Positions 6,201 through 62,988 of a stretch of 64,000 nt of DNA are shown piece after piece. This stretch comes from Sialis fuliginosa (taxonomy: Eukaryota; Arthropoda; Insecta; Megaloptera; Sialidae), in NCBI GenBank assembly GCA_961205875.1, contig OY540810.1, positions 2,480,001 through 2,544,000 on the forward strand. Direction: 5' to 3'. Under the pieces are notes generated by a model. The model made no database searches. It was not told the DNA's origin and worked only from the letters and a program-made list of their open reading frames with translations. A program made the translations under genes and the position numbers. Each line of letters begins with the position of its first letter. Position 1 is the first letter of the stretch.

Positions 6201-9200
6201 GACTCTATTCAAACGATGTCGTTAAATTTCGAAATTTTGATTTGAATATGTTAATAAAGAATACTACTGAATCAATTACTGGAGTTTGGAATACCTTACC
6301 ATAATGGGTATTTATGATTATGAATGCTTTCAAGTAAATTTGTAACTGTAACCGAGTTGATTTCGACCGTATCTACAACCAAAGGCGAGTGTACAAGGTG
6401 AATGACTTTCAAAGTGAATACGATTGTGTTTTGGTCGAGATAAGAAGGCGTCTTGGTTTAAGTGACGCGAGGTGAGCCATTTACTTATCAATTGTACTTC
6501 AGATATGGTAATCAAACCAAATGTTTATTAATTAACAATGAAAGGAGTTCCGAGATGAATCGAGTTGAACGGCACGAAATCAAGTAAAATCATTGCGACA
6601 AATCTGACATATATTTATCAATAGATGTAGTAAATGCTAATAATAAAATACAAATTTTATATTTAATAGTTGTGTCAAAAAAAAACAAAAAACTTCAGGA
6701 TGGTGTAACCTATTAATACTTACAGTAAAACGTGTCAAGTTTAACATCAATGCAGTACGAATTGTCTGAAGTTGAGTAGAAATAACAGACAGTACAGATA
6801 TGTCTATACGATTGAATTCATCAAAACATCCCCAAGCTCCGCACTGGCACAACCCTCCAAGTATCGTTCCTACAGCTTTATAATCCATACCTTCACCACA
6901 ATTAGTAACAACACATAGTAAAGCCATCGCTTTGGCTAAATCTTTAACTGTTTCTGTTTTTCCTGTACCAGCAGGGCCTTTAAAAAGGAAAAAAATAATT
7001 TTCGTCTTTTTTATTTTAGTGAAAATATTTTTTACCTGCTGGCGCACCGCCCATTCTCATCGTCAATGCTTGAGTAATAGTTAAATATATTCTGTCAGTT
7101 AAAGGTGTAATGACTAATCGTCCGTTGAGGCCCATATATTCATATCCGTAAGGAAACGTTCCTGTACATTGTTTTACCATGAGATTATCGAATTCTTTCA
7201 ACCAATAAAAACGTAATTGACTTTCCCATTCAAATTCAGATGCGTCCATAATACTATCCTTAACGAACCCTTCTATAATATCTCTAGCGTGGACATCGAT
7301 CGTCACGATTGTTTTAAGTTTCAAACGATCATTCGATGTCAAATCAGTTCTCATTCTTAAAACCAATTCATCCAACTGGCCATTCAACTGTTCTAAATAC
7401 TCTTTCATCGATCGTTTGTTTCCCCGTTTAATTTTATCAAAAACGTTTTCTACCTCGGTCGTCCACCATACTGCATTTGCCGCAAGACAAACCATACCGT
7501 GATAATCTAAAATCCAATTAGTACGAGGTCTTCTGACTTTGCCATAATCAAATATCGCTTTCTTTGTAATGTACCGATTGGCTTTTCTCATTTCACTTAA
7601 CACTACGTTCATCCAATCTTCTACATGGCCTTCTGCCAATACAGCAGTACGGAATTCCATTATTTCCCCCTCGGATGATATCATAGCTGTTGCTACAGTG
7701 TTGTTCAAAAGATCGGGCCCTAACTGCAGTGATTTTATATTATCAAACATCTAAAAATATAATAGAAAAATTTAGGTTTAGATTAACCTTTATACACTTA
7801 CTATAGGTGCTTTTTCTATTACACAACCACATAGTGAAAAGTACTTAATAGAAAAGATAAGAGAAAATATTTTATAGTTGTTTTAAAAAATAACAAACGT
7901 ATTTCTTATTCAGTGAACTTACATACATCTACACTCAATAATGTTGTGACTGTACCTAGGTGACTAACACATTGACTGACACTGAGTTATCCCAATGGCA
8001 CCGTGTCAGTCACCAGTGAAAGACACTGAATTATCCCAATGGCGCCATGTCATTAATTGGTAACTGACACCGAGTTATTTTAATGGCGCCATGTCAGTCA
8101 CCGGTAACTGACACCAAATTATCCCAATGGTGCCATGCCAGTCACCGGTAACTGACACCGAGTTATCCCAATGGCACTGTGGACTGACACCGAGTTATCC
8201 TAATAGCACCATGTCAGTCACCGGTAACTGACACCAAATTATCCCAATGGTGCCATGCCAGTCATCGGTAACTGACACCGAGTTATCCCAATGGCACTGT
8301 GGACTGACACCAAGTTATCCTAATGGCACCATGTCAGTCACCGGTTACTGACACCAAATTATCCCAATGGTGCCATGCCAGTCACCGGTAACTGACACCG
8401 AGTTATCCCAATGGCGCTGTGGACTGACACCGAGTTATCCTAATAGCACCATGTCAGTCACCGGTAACTGACACCAAATTATCCCAATGGTGCCATGCCA
8501 GTCACCGGTAACTGACACCGAGTTATCCCAATAGCACTGTGGACTGACACCGAGTTATCCTAATAGCACCATGTCAGTCACCGGTAACTGACACCAAATT
8601 ATCCCAATGGTGCCATGCCAGTCATCGGTAACTGACACCGAGTTATCCCAATGGCACTGTGGACTGACACCAAGTTATCCTAATGGCACCATGTCAGTCA
8701 CCGGTTACTGACACCAAATTATCCCAATAGTGCCATGCCAGTCACCGGTAACTGACACCGAGTTATCCCAATGGCGCTGTGGACTGACACCGAGTTATCC
8801 TAATAGCACCATGTCAGTCACCGGTAACTGACACCAAATTATCCCAATGGTGCCATGCCAGTCACCGGTAACTGACACCGAGTTATCCCAATGGCACTGT
8901 GGACTGACACCGAGTTATCCTAATAGCACCATGTCAGTCACCGGTAACTGACACCAAATTATCCCAATGGTGCCATGCCAGTCATCGGTAACTGACACCG
9001 AGTTATCCCAATGGCACTGTGGACTGACACCAAGTTATCCTAATGGCACCATGTCAGTCACCGGTTACTGACACCAAATTATCCCAATGGTGCCATGCCA
9101 GTCACCGGTAACTGACACCGAGTTATCCCAATGGCGCTGTGGACTGACACCGAGTTATCCTTATAGCACCATGTCAGTCACCGGTAACTGACACCAAATT

Positions 9201-12200
9201 ATCCCAATGGTGCCATGCCAGTCATCGGTAACTGACACCGAGTTGTCCCAATGGCACTGTGGACTGACACCAAGTTATCCTAATGGCACCATGTCAGTCA
9301 CCGGTTACTGACACCAAGTTATCCCAATGGTGCCATGCCAGTCACCGGTAACTGACACCGAGTTGTCCCAATAGCGCTGTGGACTGACACCGAGTTATCC
9401 CAATGGCGCCGTGTCAGTCACATGTGATTGATAGTGAATTATTCAAAAAAAAAACAAAAAAAAATTCTTTGGACATTTTACAAAAAAAAACCTGTTGGCG
9501 TTCAACATGTCAAAAGTAAATAAGAAATATTTACTTTTATCATATGTTCCTGTATGCAACTTGCTTCGCTGCTACCAAGAATAGAAAGAAGTTCATCTGT
9601 AGAAATAAAATAAAACCGTGGAAAAATTTTCCGTTTCGATTCCATATAATTGCTCAATGACTTTTCACATTTCTCTAAGCCACGTCCTAATTTCTGTAGT
9701 TCAGAAAGACGGTCCGCCATCGTACAACAGTCAAGTACGTTTATTCTTTTCGCCGTATCCAGCATAATCTATAAATCGTTAGTATTTAATTTAGCGCTGT
9801 ATTTATTTTAAATAAAAAACAACTAGAAATTACCTTTCTAAATGATTTATCTAAATCATCAAATTTTTGCGCTTCTTCCGGTAACTGAAATCGAATATCT
9901 CCTCCAACAAATATTCCCTCGAGATATAACCATTTTCTTTGTGTAGCTTTCCATTCATCTATTACCTCACTAATAGTAGATAAGTTTTTTTCCCATTTTT
10001 GAACTTGAGACAAAAATGGACCAACAAATCTAAAAGTAAATTACAAATTTGAATTAGTCAGAAGTTGCTAAAAAGTATTTAACTTTGAAACAAGCGCTGC
10101 AACTTTAGTTAATGGCAGTAATTGAAAACGTAGATATAAAAGCGACGTGTATTAACGTTACGATGAATAAAAAAATACTTAAGACTTACTGTGACCCGGC
10201 CATGCTTTGTAAATTCATTGAATTATCTTCTAAAATTTGAATAATTTCATCAACTGGTCCTAGAATATAACCACGATCTTCTGACCCTTTTGTATGTTTG
10301 AATACAATAAAATTTGTATTAGCCCAAGTATCAGCTATCTCTTTAACTCCTTTCTCCATAGCGAGTTCTTTAATTGCATTATTGATAATTTGTTCTGCGA
10401 TATCTTTATAGCGATGTAATTCCATTGCAAACATATTTTCTAACGTGAATCGGTCAGCTGACATATCAAAGAATTGCCCTAAAATAAAATAATACGTAAT
10501 AAGTTTTCATCTATGAAATTATAAATATTAACTCCGTACCACTTAAACTAAAAATATACACCTTAACCACAATAAAACAATGTCACTCGACACGTGTTTC
10601 GACTTCACAAGAAGTCCTCATCAGGAGCCTAACAGTTCCAGACTGATATAGTCTTGGTCAAACCTAATATACCTATATACTAAAAGGGCTTATCTCGCTT
10701 CAATGATTCTGACCAATCAACTGCAAGGTCTAGAAGGACTGAAGCTGGGATAGGTCCGGTACCACTATTCAAAATCCTAGTCTTATCCCTCAAGATTTTT
10801 AAGCTTTCTGCTGCGTCCAATTGATTATTATTACTGCATGTTTTAATTAGTTTTAGTATAAATATTAGGTTTGACCAAGACTGTATCAGTCTGGAACTGT
10901 TAGGCTCCTGATGAGGACTTCTTGTGAAGTCGAAACACGTGTCGAGTGACATTGTTTTATTGTGGTTAAGGTGTACATATATTTTTAGTTTAAGTGACCA
11001 CAGTTTCTCCGTTTTTCCAGTAACCCCGTACCAGTTTTAGTCATAAGTTCTTTCCAATGCCGTTCTCTGAGTGCTTCATTTTTAAGAGCAACCATTAATG
11101 GAACCATGCCCTTAAATTCTTTCATGTCTATATTTAAAACCTGTCCAACCGGCATATTTCTTATAGCGAGAGGCAGCTTACGGAATTCTTTGATGTAATT
11201 ATCAATACCGTCTACTAAAACTTGGGAATCTAAATTAGCCCAAAGCGTTTTTGACCAAATTTCACGTGACTGCTTTTGGTTTTTGTATATTTTATACAGT
11301 ATTTCTAAATTTTGGTAATCGTTTCTCGTTCGCAGAAATTCAGAATAATCGGCCAACGGTATATCAAAAAGCATGACTGCGTTGACTAAATCCAGCCGTT
11401 TATTTTCAAGTTCTTCAAAACTTTTGTAGTAATCCTACACAAAAAATAAATAATTATTTATGTAGTTTTTATAAGATTTCAAATATAGTTACCTCCATTA
11501 AATCTAATCCTTTATCTAAGTCATTACCAACAGCCCCTGGGCCTTCTGCGTCATAACGTTTAACAAACTCAGCGAGAATTTCACAAAATTCGTTAATTTC
11601 TTCCATTGTCATTTGCGCAAACCTTTCTTTAGTAGACTCCAATAATTGTGATCGATATAGAGCAGAAAGATACAATGATTCCCAATCTTTTTGTAGATTT
11701 TGTGCAGTTTCTATATCTTCCACATGTACCTAACGTTAATTTAAAAAAATATGTGAAACATTTCAATATTTATATTAATAAATAAAATGGCCAAAACAAA
11801 TTTGCAGTGTTCGTTATAATTTTCATTCAAAGTACTAATTAAAAGCTACATTCTGGAATTTTTTCATATTTTTTGCATCGATCATTTAGAAATTAGAGGG
11901 GAAGACACACTGATTATGACTTTGAAAGCAAATATCTTGTGACTGAAGGGTTAAAATCAAAAGATCTCAAGACATTTTTTGTTACATTTTACGAGACATA
12001 TCTAAAGACACCTAACTCAATGGTTCAAGTGGAAAAAAAATTTAGCAGACGTTTCAGTCTTTAAAAGGAAGGTCAAAAAAAATTATTTTTTTAAAAATCT
12101 TAACATTTCTGTTTTTGGGTCATCAATTTACATCCGTACACCAAATTTCATCTTAATCCTTAATATATATATAAAGCTCAACGTCTGTCTGTCTGTCCGT

Positions 12201-29374: not shown

Positions 29375-30544
29375 TGTCCGTTCTATTAACGGTTATAAAT
29401 AACTTGGCATCTGCTAATTTTATAAATTGTTAAAAAAAAGAAAACAACAATGAGTTAATAAATTTATGTATATAGGAACGTATGATTAACAGAATTAACT
29501 TTTCGTCGTAACAATAAAACAGCGCCATTTTAATTCCCCTTCTGCTAACTCAATTAAGCGCTTTGTTTGATCATTCAGCATCCAGCAAGTCTTGAAGAAT
29601 TCAAGAAAAACTACAGTAAATTTGAAAATTGTTGTCTTCATAACATATACCTATATATACAATTGACTGAAAGGCGGGGTTTCAACAATAAAATAAAAAC
29701 CGATTGGTTGGAATAAATTTAAACGCAGCTCGTTGATTGGTTGTACGTACGAAGAATGCTGTATTGATTTAGGGGCAGGGTTTATATGTATATGGTAGGG
29801 AGTTAAGTGGGCGGAACCTAGTCAGGTTTCCCAGTGGGAATGAGTGTTGGAGGGGGGGTTAATTATCTAAGGTTAGGTTTCTGCTTTAGTGTGAGAATAT
29901 TGTTCGAATTGATGACACTTGAATTTTTGAGGGTGCGCTTTCTAATTCTTTCGGGATTTCGAACATTTTTCAAATTGTTGTAAATTGGAATGTTCTACCG
30001 TGCACGCATTGTTATGTGATCATTATGATGATAAAGTGTAGATGTACGGACAAATTATAAAACTTGTTTACTTTTCAAATATTTAACTGCCAAATTTAAA
30101 TTCATTGTTGAAGTTTTTGTGTTTAAACAATTTAAACTGAGTGTTGTGTTATATATTTTATATATGATTTAATTGTGTGTTTTGTTATACTTATATATTT
30201 CAATTAAAATTTGTTAATAGTGTACCTAGTTCAGTTTTATTATTTTTATTGACAGAAAATTTGGAGTAGGTATAGATATATATCTACCTATCAAATACAT
30301 ACGATATTAATATATGTCTAAAGAATTTGTGTGTGCATGGCTTATTAAAGATGTTGAGGAAGAAACGTTATTTAAAGGGTTTTCAAAAACATCCCATATA
30401 ATATATAATAATATATTAAAAGTGCCTCTATCGAATCAAGTTTATTTAAAAATATAAAAAGTACTCTAAATTTGTTATATGAAAATCTTCCAAAACATTG
30501 AAGAAATATATTTTTTTTATTTTCTAAATTTTCGTTGTCACCGT

Positions 30545-32665
30545 CGGTAAAAAAGAATGCGAATTGGTAGAAGAAAACAATACGAATTTCGTGATTTTCT
30601 AACAAAAATCAATGGATTAAAAGTGTGTATTATACATATGTATGTAAATTGCCTGATTCTGATGGGATTTTAGACTTTGGATGTTCGGTAAAAAAGAATG
30701 CACGAATTGGTAGAAGAAAACAATACGAATTTTGTGATTTTCCTACAAAAATCAATGGATTAAAAGTGTGTATTATACATATGTATGTAAATTGCCAGTT
30801 TCCGGTGGGCTTTTAGACTTTGAATGTTCGGTAAAGAAGAATGCGAATTGGTAGAAGAAAACAATACGAATTTCGTGATTTTCTAACAAAAATCTATGGA
30901 TTAAAAGTGTGTATTGTACATATGTATGTAAATTGCCTGATTCTGATGGGAATTTAGACTTTGGATGTTCGGTAAAAAAGAATGCGCGAATTGGTAGAAG
31001 AAAATAGTACGAATTTCGTGATTTTCTAACAAAAATCAATGGATTAAAAGTGTGTATTATACATATGTATGTAAATTGCCAGTTTCCGGTGGGCTTTTAG
31101 ACTTTGAATGTTCGGTAAAGAAGAATGCGAATTGGTAGAAGAAAACAATACGAAATTTGTGATTTTCTAACAAAAATCAAACCTACAACGGTTTGTATTA
31201 TACATATGTATGTAAACTGCCAGTTTCCGGTCGGTTTTTAGACTTTGGATGTTCGGTAAAGAAGAATGCGAATTGGTAGAAGAAAACAGTTACGAAGCTA
31301 GTGATTTTCTAACAAAAATCAAACCAATAACGGATTAAATAAGTGTGTATTTAAACTGCCTGTTTCCGGTGGGCTTTTAGACTTTGGATGTTCGGTAAAG
31401 AAGAATGCGAATTGGTAGAAGAAAACAATACGAAATTTGTGATTTTCTAACAAAAATCAAACCTACAACGGTTTGTATTATACATATGTATGTAAACTGC
31501 CAGTTTCCGGTCGGTTTTTAGACTTTGGATGTTCGGTAAAGAAGAATGCGAATTGGTAGAAGAAAACAGTTACGAAGCTAGTGATTTTCTAACAAAAATC
31601 AAACCAATAACGGATTAAATAAGTGTGTATTTAAACTGCCTGTTTCCGGTGGGCTTTTAGACTTTGGATGTTCGGTAAAGAAGAATGCGAATTGGTAGAA
31701 GAAAACAATACGAAATTTGTGATTTTCTAACAAAAATCAAACCTACAACGGTTTGTATTATACATATGTATGTAAACTGCCAGTTTCCGGTCGGTTTTTA
31801 GACTTTGGATGTTCGGTAAAGAAGAATGCGAATTGGTAGAAGAAAACAGTTACGAAGCTAGTGATTTTCTAACAAAAATCAAACCAATAACGGATTAAAT
31901 AAGTGTGTATTTAAACTGCCTGTTTCCGGTGGGCTTTTAGACTTTGGATGTTCGGTAAAGAAGAATGCGAATTGGTAGAAGAAAACAATACGAAATTTGT
32001 GATTTTCTAACAAAAATCAAACCTACAACGGTTTGTATTATACATATGTATGTAAACTGCCAGTTTCCGGTCGGTTTTTAGACTTTGGATGTTCGGTAAA
32101 GAAGAATGCGAATTGGTAGAAGAAAACAGTTACGAAGCTAGTGATTTTCTAACAAAAATCAAACCAATAACGGATTAAATAAGTGTGTATTTAAACTGCC
32201 TGTTTCCGGTGGGCTTTTAGACTTTGGATGTTCGGTAAAGAAGAATGCGAATTGGTAGAAGAAAACAATACGAAATTTGTGATTTTCTAACAAAAATCAA
32301 ACCTACAACGGTTTGTATTATACATATGTATGTAAACTGCCAGTTTCCGGTCGGTTTTTAGACTTTGGATGTTCGGTAAAGAAGAATGCGAATTGGTAGA
32401 AGAAAACAGTTACGAAGCTAGTGATTTTCTAACAAAAATCAAACCAATAACGGATTAAATAAGTGTGTATTTAAACTGCCTGTTTCCGGTGGGCTTTTAG
32501 ACTTTGGATGTTCGGTAAAGAAGAATGCGAATTGGTAGAAGAAAACAATACGAAATTTGTGATTTTCTAACAAAAATCAAACCACAATAACGGATTAAAT
32601 AAGTGTATTAGACATATGTGCATGTAAATTTGCAGATTCCTGTGGGATTTTAGACTTTGGATGTT
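30545..32665 (+). repeat. Satellite array of ~140-bp monomers, 280-bp higher-order unit
   Basis: Fifteen monomers beginning near TTCGGTAAAGAAGAATGCG at about 30545, 30688, 30826, 30968, 31112, 31250, 31390, 31531, 31670, 31811, 31950, 32091, 32230, 32371 and 32510. From about 31110 two monomer types (about 141 and 139 bp, marked by ACAATACGAAATTTGTG and ACAGTTACGAAGCTAGTG) alternate as an essentially identical 280-bp unit. The first monomers are more diverged. Homology ends at GGATGTTC near 32665, 24 bp before the vg start codon, so the array may reach into vg 5' leader sequence. Confidence 0.95.
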
Positions 32666-32689
32666 CTTAGCAAGTGAAGGATCGCGAGT

Positions 32690-32875
32690 ATGAGCTGCGG
32701 TGAAGTGCAGATGTATCAGGCGTACTACCCGTACTTGTACCAGCGGGGTGCTCATCATAGACAGCACCATCAGACCGGAGCGACGGCTCCGGGCGGCGGC
32801 GGACCGCACCATGCGTTCGCGTCGGCGGCCGCCGGAAGTCCGTTTGCACCGGCAACTGCACATCAGTATGATAGG
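32690..32875 (+). CDS. vg: vestigial (vg), exon 1
   Basis: Encodes 62 residues. MSCGEVQMYQAYYPYLYQR matches the conserved N-terminus I know from insect Vestigial (YYPYLY), and the exon ends HQYDR, which joins exon 2's F to give YDRF, also typical. The middle is low-complexity (Gly, His, Ala, Pro) and GC-rich, unlike its surroundings. Donor GTTGGT at 32876 is weak but in phase 0 with exon 2. Vestigial is a nuclear cofactor that binds the TEAD factor Scalloped to specify wing tissue; the binding (Vg/TONDU) domain would be encoded downstream of the window. Identity rests on the N-terminus and exon phases, so a different YYPYLY protein remains a small possibility. Confidence 0.82.
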
Positions 32876-32925
32876 GTTGGTATTATATTGTTCTACATTA
32901 ACAAGGGGAAGCAACAGCACGGTCC

Positions 32926-33715
32926 ATGAGAATTTCAATGAGCTTGTGGTATGTCAAACTAGAGCAAAAATAAAAAGACACGTGTCCAACAATTTGATCT
33001 CATAGGCCTTAATTACAAAGATAATTAACTTTGATAATTTGTGTATTCAATATAACCGTGTATTATGTTCGCTCGAAATATAAGTGTGTTGGCCTTACGG
33101 TCAACGCGCTGGCGTCTCGCCTGGTTTTAAGATTTTAATTTTAATTTTTATTTACAATTATTTTTTATTTTTTTGTACACATTACCTCTCCCACTTGCGT
33201 AAAAATCGATAAATTAGACATAAATAAAACATATATTATTATTGACAATAGATGTTTGTGGTTTCTATCAAGTTTGTTTTTTATTAAAACTTTTCAATTT
33301 ATTAATTAAAAACTAATGAGTTGTGTCAATAATAAATTAAATTTACTTTAAAACAAATTAATAACTATGTACTGGCGTATATATCAATATTTTCATTGTC
33401 AATAATAATATATGTTTTATTTATGTCTAATTTATCGATTTTTACGCAAGTGGGAGAGGTAATGTGTACAAAAAAATTAAAAATTGTAAATAAAAATTAA
33501 AATCAAAATCTTAAAACCAGGCGAGACGCCAGCGTGTTGACCGTAGGGCCAACACACTTATATTTCGAGCGAACATAATACACGGTTATATTGAATACAC
33601 AAATTTTCAAAGTTAATTATCTTTGTAATTAAGGCCTATGAGATCAAATTGTTGTACACGTGTCTTTTTATTTTTGCTCTAGTTTGACATACCACAAGTT
33701 CATTGAAATTCTCAT
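32926..33715. repeat. Large palindrome 50 bp after vg exon 1
   Basis: Arms of about 340 bp start ATGAGAATTTCAATGA and end in the complement, with a centre near 33320. Each arm carries GGTCAACGCGCTGGCGTCTC or its near copy, a tRNA- or SINE-like word. No open frame. It is a foldback-type element by structure. Confidence 0.8.
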
Positions 33716-33741
33716 GTAAATATCGATATCTATTTTCTAAA

Positions 33742-34275
33742 CAGGGCCGTAACTACCACGGGGGTAGTGCCCCGGGGGATCCCCGCAGGAGCGTAAAAAT
33801 TGGAGTGAGCAAGAAGAAAAAATTGAAGATTTTTCAAATGTTAAATGTTACATTAAAATTACTTATGCCCGGTATTATCAACCAATTTAAAGCTCCTTTA
33901 GCGCTATAAATGCTCCTTTAACCTAAATTTTGTATATTACAAACGTGATTTAGATCAATATTAAGGCTCTCAATGAAAAATGTACATAATATGCGTTGTA
34001 AAAACATAGTGTAGAAAATTAAAAACCTATTTGATTAAATATATATTGCTTGGTTCTGTTAATAATATGACAGTTAGTTAAAGGAGCATTTAGTTAAATT
34101 TGATAATACTAGACGTAAGAAGTGTAAAATTCTAGCTGACAAGCAAAAAAAAGTCATTCAAATAAAAATTAGTAACAAATGTAAAATTTATAAGCTATGA
34201 TCCAAAAAAAAGGTCTTCAATTTTTATTATTTGCATATCTAGGGGCCCCTCGATCACCTCTTGCCCGGGAACCTG
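33742..34275. mobile_element. hAT-like non-autonomous element with 8-bp duplication
   Basis: Begins CAGGGCCGTAACTACC and ends TTGCCCGGGAACCTG. It is flanked by a perfect 8-bp direct repeat TTTCTAAA at 33734-33741 and 34276-34283. An 8-bp target duplication with CAGG...CCTG ends is the hAT signature. No transposase frame remains. Confidence 0.8.
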
Positions 34276-54766: not shown

Positions 54767-55497
54767 AAACATCTGCCAAGTAAATGCACAGTGCTTCCTC
54801 GTGATAATTCACTAAAACCGATAGTGTTCAGATAAATTGCCTGGCAGTGGTTAACCATTTAATTTTTATACAAATTTTACTAAATAATTTTTTCTTTAAA
54901 CGCACCTGAATATTTTTTCATATATTTTTAATTTTTTGACAATTTCAATCTAAATCTAAATTTATGCAAATGTCAAAATGACATTTAAAACGTCAAAGTG
55001 ACATTTAAAACGCTAAAATGACATTTAAAACGTCAAAATGACATTTAATTATCCAATCAAATATCAATTTAGAAAAACAAAACACGAATTTTTAAAATAA
55101 ATTGAGATAAATCTTTGTAAGGGAATATTTTACAACAAACGTAGTAGACCCATATTATAGGAAATTTAATGCTCTACAAAAAATATTCTATAAAATTTTC
55201 TCGTAACATGTGTCGTTCTTGAGATATCATTTTGAAATGGGACAGTCCTCAATCCAAACCCAACCATCCGACCAAGTTTCAATAAAATCGGTTCACTGGT
55301 TCATGAGTTATGCGTGTGACAAGGATTCAGGGGACAGACGGACACACGCACAGACAGACAGACACGGAACGAAAAGTGTTTGTCTTGACGTGAAACGGAT
55401 AAATCAATTTAAAATTTTGAAATCGGAGAACATTTTTTTTGTCTCAATCTGAAACGATCACATAGCTTCTCGTATTTTCGATAATGCGAGGAAGCAA
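54767..55497 (-). mobile_element. CTTCCTCG-family repeat, copy 7 (full length)
   Basis: Reverse orientation. Holds four tandem 20-bp units (GACATTTAAAACGTCAAAAT) near 54975-55040. Confidence 0.8.
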
Positions 55498-56049: not shown

Positions 56050-56843
56050 ATTGCTTCCTCGCAATATCGAAGATACGAGAAGCTATGTGATCGTTTCAGA
56101 TTGAGACAAAAAAAAAGTTCTCCAATTTCAAAATTTTAAATTGATTTATCCGTTTCACGTCAAGACAAACACTTTTCGTTCCGTGTCTGTCTGTCTGTCC
56201 GTGTGTCCGTCCGTCTGTCCGTCTGTCCCCTGAATCCTTGTCACACGCATAACTCATGAACCACTGAACCGATATTATTGAAACTTGGTCGGATGGTTGG
56301 GTTTGGTTTGAGGACGGTCCCATTTCAAAATCATCAAAATCGTGTGTAAGGGGGAGGGGTGACACCCCAAAATATTTCTTTTTTCAAGATATATCAAGAA
56401 CGGCACATGTTACGAGAAAATTGTGTAGAATATTTTTTGTAGAGCATTCAATTTCTTATAATATGGGTCTACTATACGTTTGTTGTAAAATATTCCCTTA
56501 CAAATATTTATCTCAATTTATTTTAAAAATTCGTGTTTTGTTTTTCTAAATTGATATTTGATTGGATATATTAAATGTCATTTTGACGTTTTAAATGTCA
56601 TTTTGGCGTTTTAAATGTCACTTTGACGTTTTAAATGTCATTTTGACATTTGCATAAATTTAGATTTAGATTGAAATTGTCAAAAAATTAAAAATATATG
56701 AAAAAATATTCAGGTGCGTTTTGAGTAAAATTTGTATAAAAATTAAATGGTTAACCACTGCCAGGCAATTTATCTGAACACTATCGGTTTTAGTGAATTT
56801 AGCACGAGGAAGCACTGTGCATTTACTTGGCAGATGTTTTTTT
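56050..56843 (+). mobile_element. CTTCCTCG-family repeat, copy 8 (full length)
   Basis: Best copy, from TTGCTTCCTCGCAATATCG to CTTGGCAGATGTTTT, with four tandem GTCATTTTGACGTTTTAAAT units near 56575-56650. It is bounded by an 80-bp direct repeat (about 55957-56038 and 56838-56918). Confidence 0.8.
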
Positions 56844-62781: not shown

Positions 62782-62988
62782 GAAGTAGCGGACTCGGTCA
62801 TTCGTCGACATCGGTGACTGCGGGTCATGGTGCCGGGGGTGGCGGGTCTGTCGGGTCGCCGGCAGGTCTTGGCGGTAGTGGAACAGGAGCTGTTGGATCT
62901 CCTGCATCTAGTCCCGTCAGAGCGGGAGTTATGTTACCGCATAAAGTCGAGGAGGACGTATCGTTACATGGGAGGAGCAGTACAGAAG
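62782..62988 (+). CDS. vg: vestigial (vg), exon 3
   Basis: 207 nt after acceptor TTGTTCCAG, in phase 1 with exon 2. It encodes a Gly, Ser and Ala-rich tract (VGSPAGLGGSGTGAVGSPAS) and then a more specific stretch PHKVEEDVSLHGRSS, before donor GTGAGG at 62989. GC-rich, like exon 1. Total coding length so far is 162 codons plus one base; the gene continues beyond the window. Confidence 0.78.

Follow-up and report, generated by a model that had tools for sequence, protein, structure and literature searches.

The window analysed here is a stretch of 64,000 nucleotides of the megalopteran Sialis fuliginosa (contig OY540810.1, positions 2,480,001 to 2,544,000), in which a tandem array stands directly before the first coding exon of a gene that, judging by a domain encoded further downstream, is vestigial (vg). 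This domain, Vg_Tdu (TONDU; PF07545, E 7.8e-19), lies in an open reading frame about 1.5 kb past the end of the window (L035:1288-1587) and bears out the gene name proposed in the initial annotation. The two coding exons found within the window are predicted as follows.

32690..32879, plus strand: vg coding exon 1 (MSCGEVQMYQAYYPYLYQR...), with a putative donor G/GTATTA in phase 1
62782..62910, plus strand: start of vg coding exon 2, with a putative acceptor TTCCAG/GA in phase with exon 1

Position 62910 marks where the sequence that was read stops and not where exon 2 ends; the exon with Vg_Tdu is outside the window, further downstream. We infer that all three exons belong to one transcript. 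Alone, neither the exon 1 nor the exon 2 peptide matched any Pfam family at E up to 1, and the exon 1 peptide bears what we take to be a resemblance to the Vestigial N-terminus. Upstream of vg the window holds a BAP31 gene on the plus strand (PF05529, E 1e-18) and minus-strand open reading frames that presumably encode a dynein heavy chain. Between the latter sits a second large minisatellite (8063-9421; 120-bp unit, apparently made of 44- and 32-bp subunits, 95% matches), of which none of the 26 loci compared has a copy. A near-perfect inverted repeat lies at 32925-33716, shortly after the start of vg intron 1, with 247-nt arms that are 96% complementary, enclosing a further 90-nt pair that is 99% complementary; because one arm recurs in the locus L027 (98% over 181 bp), this is probably a foldback or MITE-type element.

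We cut the array into units at the motif (C/T)GGTAAA(A/G)AAGAATGC. This gave 15 head-to-tail units of 139-153 bp each, spanning 30545-32665 as a 2.1-kb tandem array, with 24 bp between its end at 32665 and the vg ATG at 32690. Tandem Repeats Finder listed the array twice, at 30544-32584 with a period of 141 (14.5 copies, 85% matches) and at 30544-32587 with a period of 280 (7.3 copies, 96% matches). Repetition on this scale was judged to need no significance test. The parts of the array and the leader that follows it are these:

30545, 30686, 30829, 30970, 31113, 31254, 31393, 31534: starts of units m01 to m08
31673, 31814, 31953, 32094, 32233, 32374, 32513: starts of units m09 to m15
30545..31112, plus strand: older part of the array, m01-m04, two 284-bp dimers (141 + 143 bp)
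31113..32512, plus strand: homogenised core, m05-m14, five identical 280-bp A+B dimers
32513..32665, plus strand: last unit, m15, 153 bp, its left ~70 bp of type A and its right half a diverged array unit
32666..32689, plus strand: non-array leader, 24 bp, directly before the vg start codon; a TGA at 32675 lies in frame

The initial annotation had described both a tandem array before the vg ATG and later monomers that form an identical 280-bp dimer repeated five times, and the units confirm each of these descriptions. Type A (141 bp; m05, m07, m09, m11 and m13) and type B (139 bp; m06, m08, m10, m12 and m14) show no differences among their copies and are 81% identical to each other. Indeed, the array matches itself exactly at a shift of 280 across 1196 bp, so that 31108-32583 is perfectly periodic. 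As the 1196 positions compared show 0 differences, divergence within the core is below about 0.25% (95% bound, positions treated as independent), and the core is therefore recent or recently homogenised. In the older part, m01 and m03 are 97% identical and m02 and m04 96%, while adjacent units share 90-92%. The array thus has an identical core and diverged units at both edges, a gradient that is typical of arrays.

Five identical dimers are also a classic site of copy-number error, and either the array or its copy number could be an artefact of assembly. We give this only a slim chance, given contigs of up to 47 Mb, the diverged edges of the array, and a window free of N. Furthermore, four of the five contig starts examined, that of C2 included, open with telomeric CCTAA/TTAGG repeats (the fifth opens with N), and long reads, if the assembly drew on them, would typically exceed 2.1 kb.

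The 392-Mb genome, which is in 20 contigs and has a GC content near 30%, was searched for further copies, with match counts that are lower bounds, very common words having been skipped. The dimer returned one candidate region with 9 matches, all within the array, and the last unit together with exon 1 returned 15 matches, none of them outside the array and exon 1. A 33-letter pattern spanning the unit junction, which is exact at 13 of the 14 junctions, had 13 forward matches genome-wide, all in the array; it had none in reverse, and a reversed control had none. The upstream flank (29600-30540) likewise had one match in the genome. The unit was absent at E 0.001 from all 20 evenly placed 10-kb samples of contigs C1 and C2. 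Elsewhere in the window it had only short chance matches (E 0.002 for the best one that is in neither the array nor its own leader), and an nhmmer search of the window beyond the array gave one match, at E 1.9.

The alternative that a dispersed satellite or transposon-derived repeat landed at vg is highly improbable, as the unit occurs at one locus in three lower-bound genome searches and in 0 of the 20 sampled loci. The genome does have such families, namely a repeat of ~160 bp shared by L034 and L035 and a repeat at window 54901-55110 that L035 and five of the 20 samples also carry. The former is a tandem repeat family at L034 7451-9437 and L035 5971-8511 (97.5-98.1% identity between the two loci in four pieces among 17), and its L035 copy lies about 4.4 kb past the open reading frame with the vg Tdu domain. 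The latter has an inverted copy at 56508-56718 (99% identical, with 20-bp subrepeats), recurs in L015, L023, L024, L032, L034 and L035, and is probably part of a dispersed element. In contrast, the vg array is, by its sequence and on three lower-bound searches that found one locus, a locus-specific repeat of the minisatellite class and not a dispersed satellite. Its copies are head to tail, the unit is longer than that of a microsatellite, and the lower-bound searches place it at one locus, as in a minisatellite or VNTR; the many arrays and high genomic abundance of satellite DNA were not found in these searches or in the 20 sampled loci. The word satellite, as the initial annotation used it, is thus misleading if a dispersed family is meant.

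The last unit had been read as a hybrid of array and single-copy sequence, which our comparisons contradict. An nhmmer profile built from the six other unit types recovers its right half (32589-32665, E 6.1e-11), which shares 82% identity with the right ends of m01 and m04 (E 3.6e-14), so single-copy sequence starts only at 32666. Some comparisons of m15 (those of middle segments and of columns) used 154 bp, one leader base included. Three middle segments can be distinguished in the units, and all are present together in m15 alone: m01-m04 are without segment 1, type A is without segment 2 and the exact form of segment 1, and type B is without segment 3. It is because m15 holds the three together that it is longer, and by parsimony it would therefore be nearest to the founder. 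Thus the unit adjoining vg is probably the one closest to the founder, and an array edge that is least rearranged on the vg side fits a local origin. Alternatively, m15 could derive from one crossover that joined a B-type left side to an older right side.

A local origin was also part of the initial annotation, in which the array grew out of vg 5' leader or promoter DNA. This fits to the extent that the family was found only at the vg locus in the three genome searches. However, the 24-bp leader itself is not significantly unit-like: a candidate homology between GAAGGATCGCGA in the leader and GAAGAATGCGA in the unit was rejected, having been equalled by 506 of 5000 23-mers from the flanking window and by 1429 of 5000 shuffles. 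A 10-codon upstream reading frame (window 32661-32693) begins in m15, and its stop codon and the start codon of vg share letters (ATGA).

The initial annotation posed a fair dilemma: a transcribed array would put satellite RNA into the leader, and an untranscribed one would call for a promoter inside or beyond it. The array might be transcribed within a long, unspliced 5' leader of vg, in which case the mRNA would carry repeat RNA. In favour of such a leader, only 24 bp separate the array from the ATG, and no strong splice acceptor is nearby. On a home-made score of AG sites, the best three of the eight between 32560 and the ATG ranked between the 83rd and 88th percentiles and none of the others above the 63rd, while the acceptor of vg exon 2 reached the 99th. 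The positions of initiator matches are also in keeping with it, the nearest one upstream lying beyond the array: between 28500 and the ATG, TCAKTY occurs on the plus strand only with its A at 29573 and at 30233, both upstream of the array. The nearer of these came from a pattern scan:

30231..30236, plus strand: candidate initiator TCAGTT, whose A is at 30233 and which has a TATA-like hexamer beginning at -29

Initiator matches of this kind occur about 1.3 times per kb in flanking DNA, so this one is not significant, and the core promoter and splice-site matches near the array are weak candidates only. Many upstream ATGs are expected to block scanning ribosomes. The array and leader contain 56, one of them opening the reading frame that overlaps the vg ATG, and an unspliced leader is thus unlikely. 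These 56 compare with 50.4 (sd 6.4) expected from 500 shuffles; in sequence terms, the array is no specialised leader, yet it would make a poor one. No known ribozyme or structured RNA was found: Rfam gave no match across 29500-33800 at E up to 1, and the predicted fold of one dimer is ordinary on both strands (z 0.06 and 0.14).

Conservation along the unit is uneven. Among the six unit types other than m15, variable columns number 10 of 85 in the joined outer block and 25 of 56 in the middle (p 1.8e-5), and with m15 added the counts are 10 of 85 and 28 of 56 (p 8e-7); the columns are non-independent, and these p-values are a guide only. The conserved outer block could reflect constraint, and its presence in every unit would suit a cis-regulatory role, with binding sites in each unit and a copy number that tunes the level of vg, for example via Scalloped, the DNA-binding partner of Vg. 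We tried eight motif forms on the units, taken to represent the sites of TEAD/Scalloped and other factors. A relaxed TEAD/Scalloped-type hexamer occurs once per unit in 15 of 15 units, where 0.08 per unit are expected, and the E-box CATATG in 10 of 15 (0.02 expected). However, all 15 units were copied from one seed, the relaxed hexamer is also present in 19 of 245 flanking 141-bp stretches, and the stricter TEAD form is in none of the units. Likewise, one of 15 units has the Su(H) form, two have the TCF form, and none has the FoxO, Hox or GAGA form.

What is reported for vg in Drosophila also points both ways. In the portions of the literature available to us, activation of Drosophila vg through the quadrant enhancer is said to need Scalloped sites (PMC2879410), but that enhancer is elsewhere reported to be dispensable for the wing (PMC9242444), and expression is presumed there to be maintained by autoregulation together with Polycomb/Trithorax elements (PMC9242444). 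For a planthopper, binding of FoxO to the first vg intron has been reported, with no FoxO element found in the 3 kb upstream of the start site (PMC7899339). The motifs thus lend weak support to a tunable control element in which each unit has one relaxed Scalloped-like hexamer, and a cis-regulatory function of the array in general is distinctly unlikely. The fuller proposal, that part of the vg proximal promoter was amplified to 15 regulatory blocks with Scalloped-type half-sites whose copy number is an evolving dial on vg autoregulation, is very unlikely.

The array is therefore probably a locus-specific, minisatellite-class repeat that arose in situ in the vg 5' flank, most likely without a dedicated function, and neutral local expansion by unequal exchange is the best reading of it. 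A stretch of ~150 bp of vg upstream DNA would have been duplicated and then become a dimer; the A+B dimer would more recently have multiplied five-fold through unequal crossing-over or replication slippage, and older units would have survived at both edges of the array. The expansion may have been tolerated if it lies within a 5' intron, between the true core promoter and the vg coding exon, or else if transcription of vg starts in or beyond the last unit.

We also asked how unusual such a placement is. In 200 kb of sampled sequence, arrays of at least 300 bp with a period of at least 20 occurred at three places, and one of them (L034) was over 1 kb, which extrapolates to about 2000 arrays over 1 kb per genome, with a very wide error as the figure rests on one array. 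On a very rough estimate that assumes 15,000 genes, about one or two arrays per genome would by chance end at most 24 bp before a start codon, and the placement at vg is notable, not improbable. As matters stand, this looks like one local repeat, ordinary and recently expanded, in an unusual place. A large, recent repeat that abuts the start codon of a developmental selector is nonetheless a natural test of how far a 5' flank tolerates disruption, and also of a possible tuning of wing development by promoter repeats.

With a unit of ~140 bp and a length of 2.1 kb, the vg array falls at the large end for minisatellites or VNTRs. Like the minisatellites described in promoters, it consists of tandem copies upstream of one gene, and variation in copy number is to be expected (PMC3516485). 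For such promoter repeats in Aspergillus, the sections of that study that we drew on give only 4.3% of tested repeat-expression relationships as significant (PMC3516485). The portions of the literature that our search covered contained no repeat array at vg, which does not prove that none exists. The satellite TCAST in Tribolium euchromatin is likewise an insect satellite-like array near genes, where, in the parts of the two reports used here, an effect on expression is proposed or, after heat stress, reported (PMC3411249, PMC4537270). TCAST is described there as a dispersed major satellite that makes up 35% of the Tribolium genome and is present near genes as partial monomers up to tetramers. 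Unlike TCAST, the vg array was found at one locus, with 15 units. In the higher-order repeats of satellite DNA, dimers are homogenised as one unit and the units at the edges are diverged. The vg array is, unlike these, single, short and beside a gene, with no centromeric setting seen, but it shares with them both its homogenised dimers and its diverged edges.
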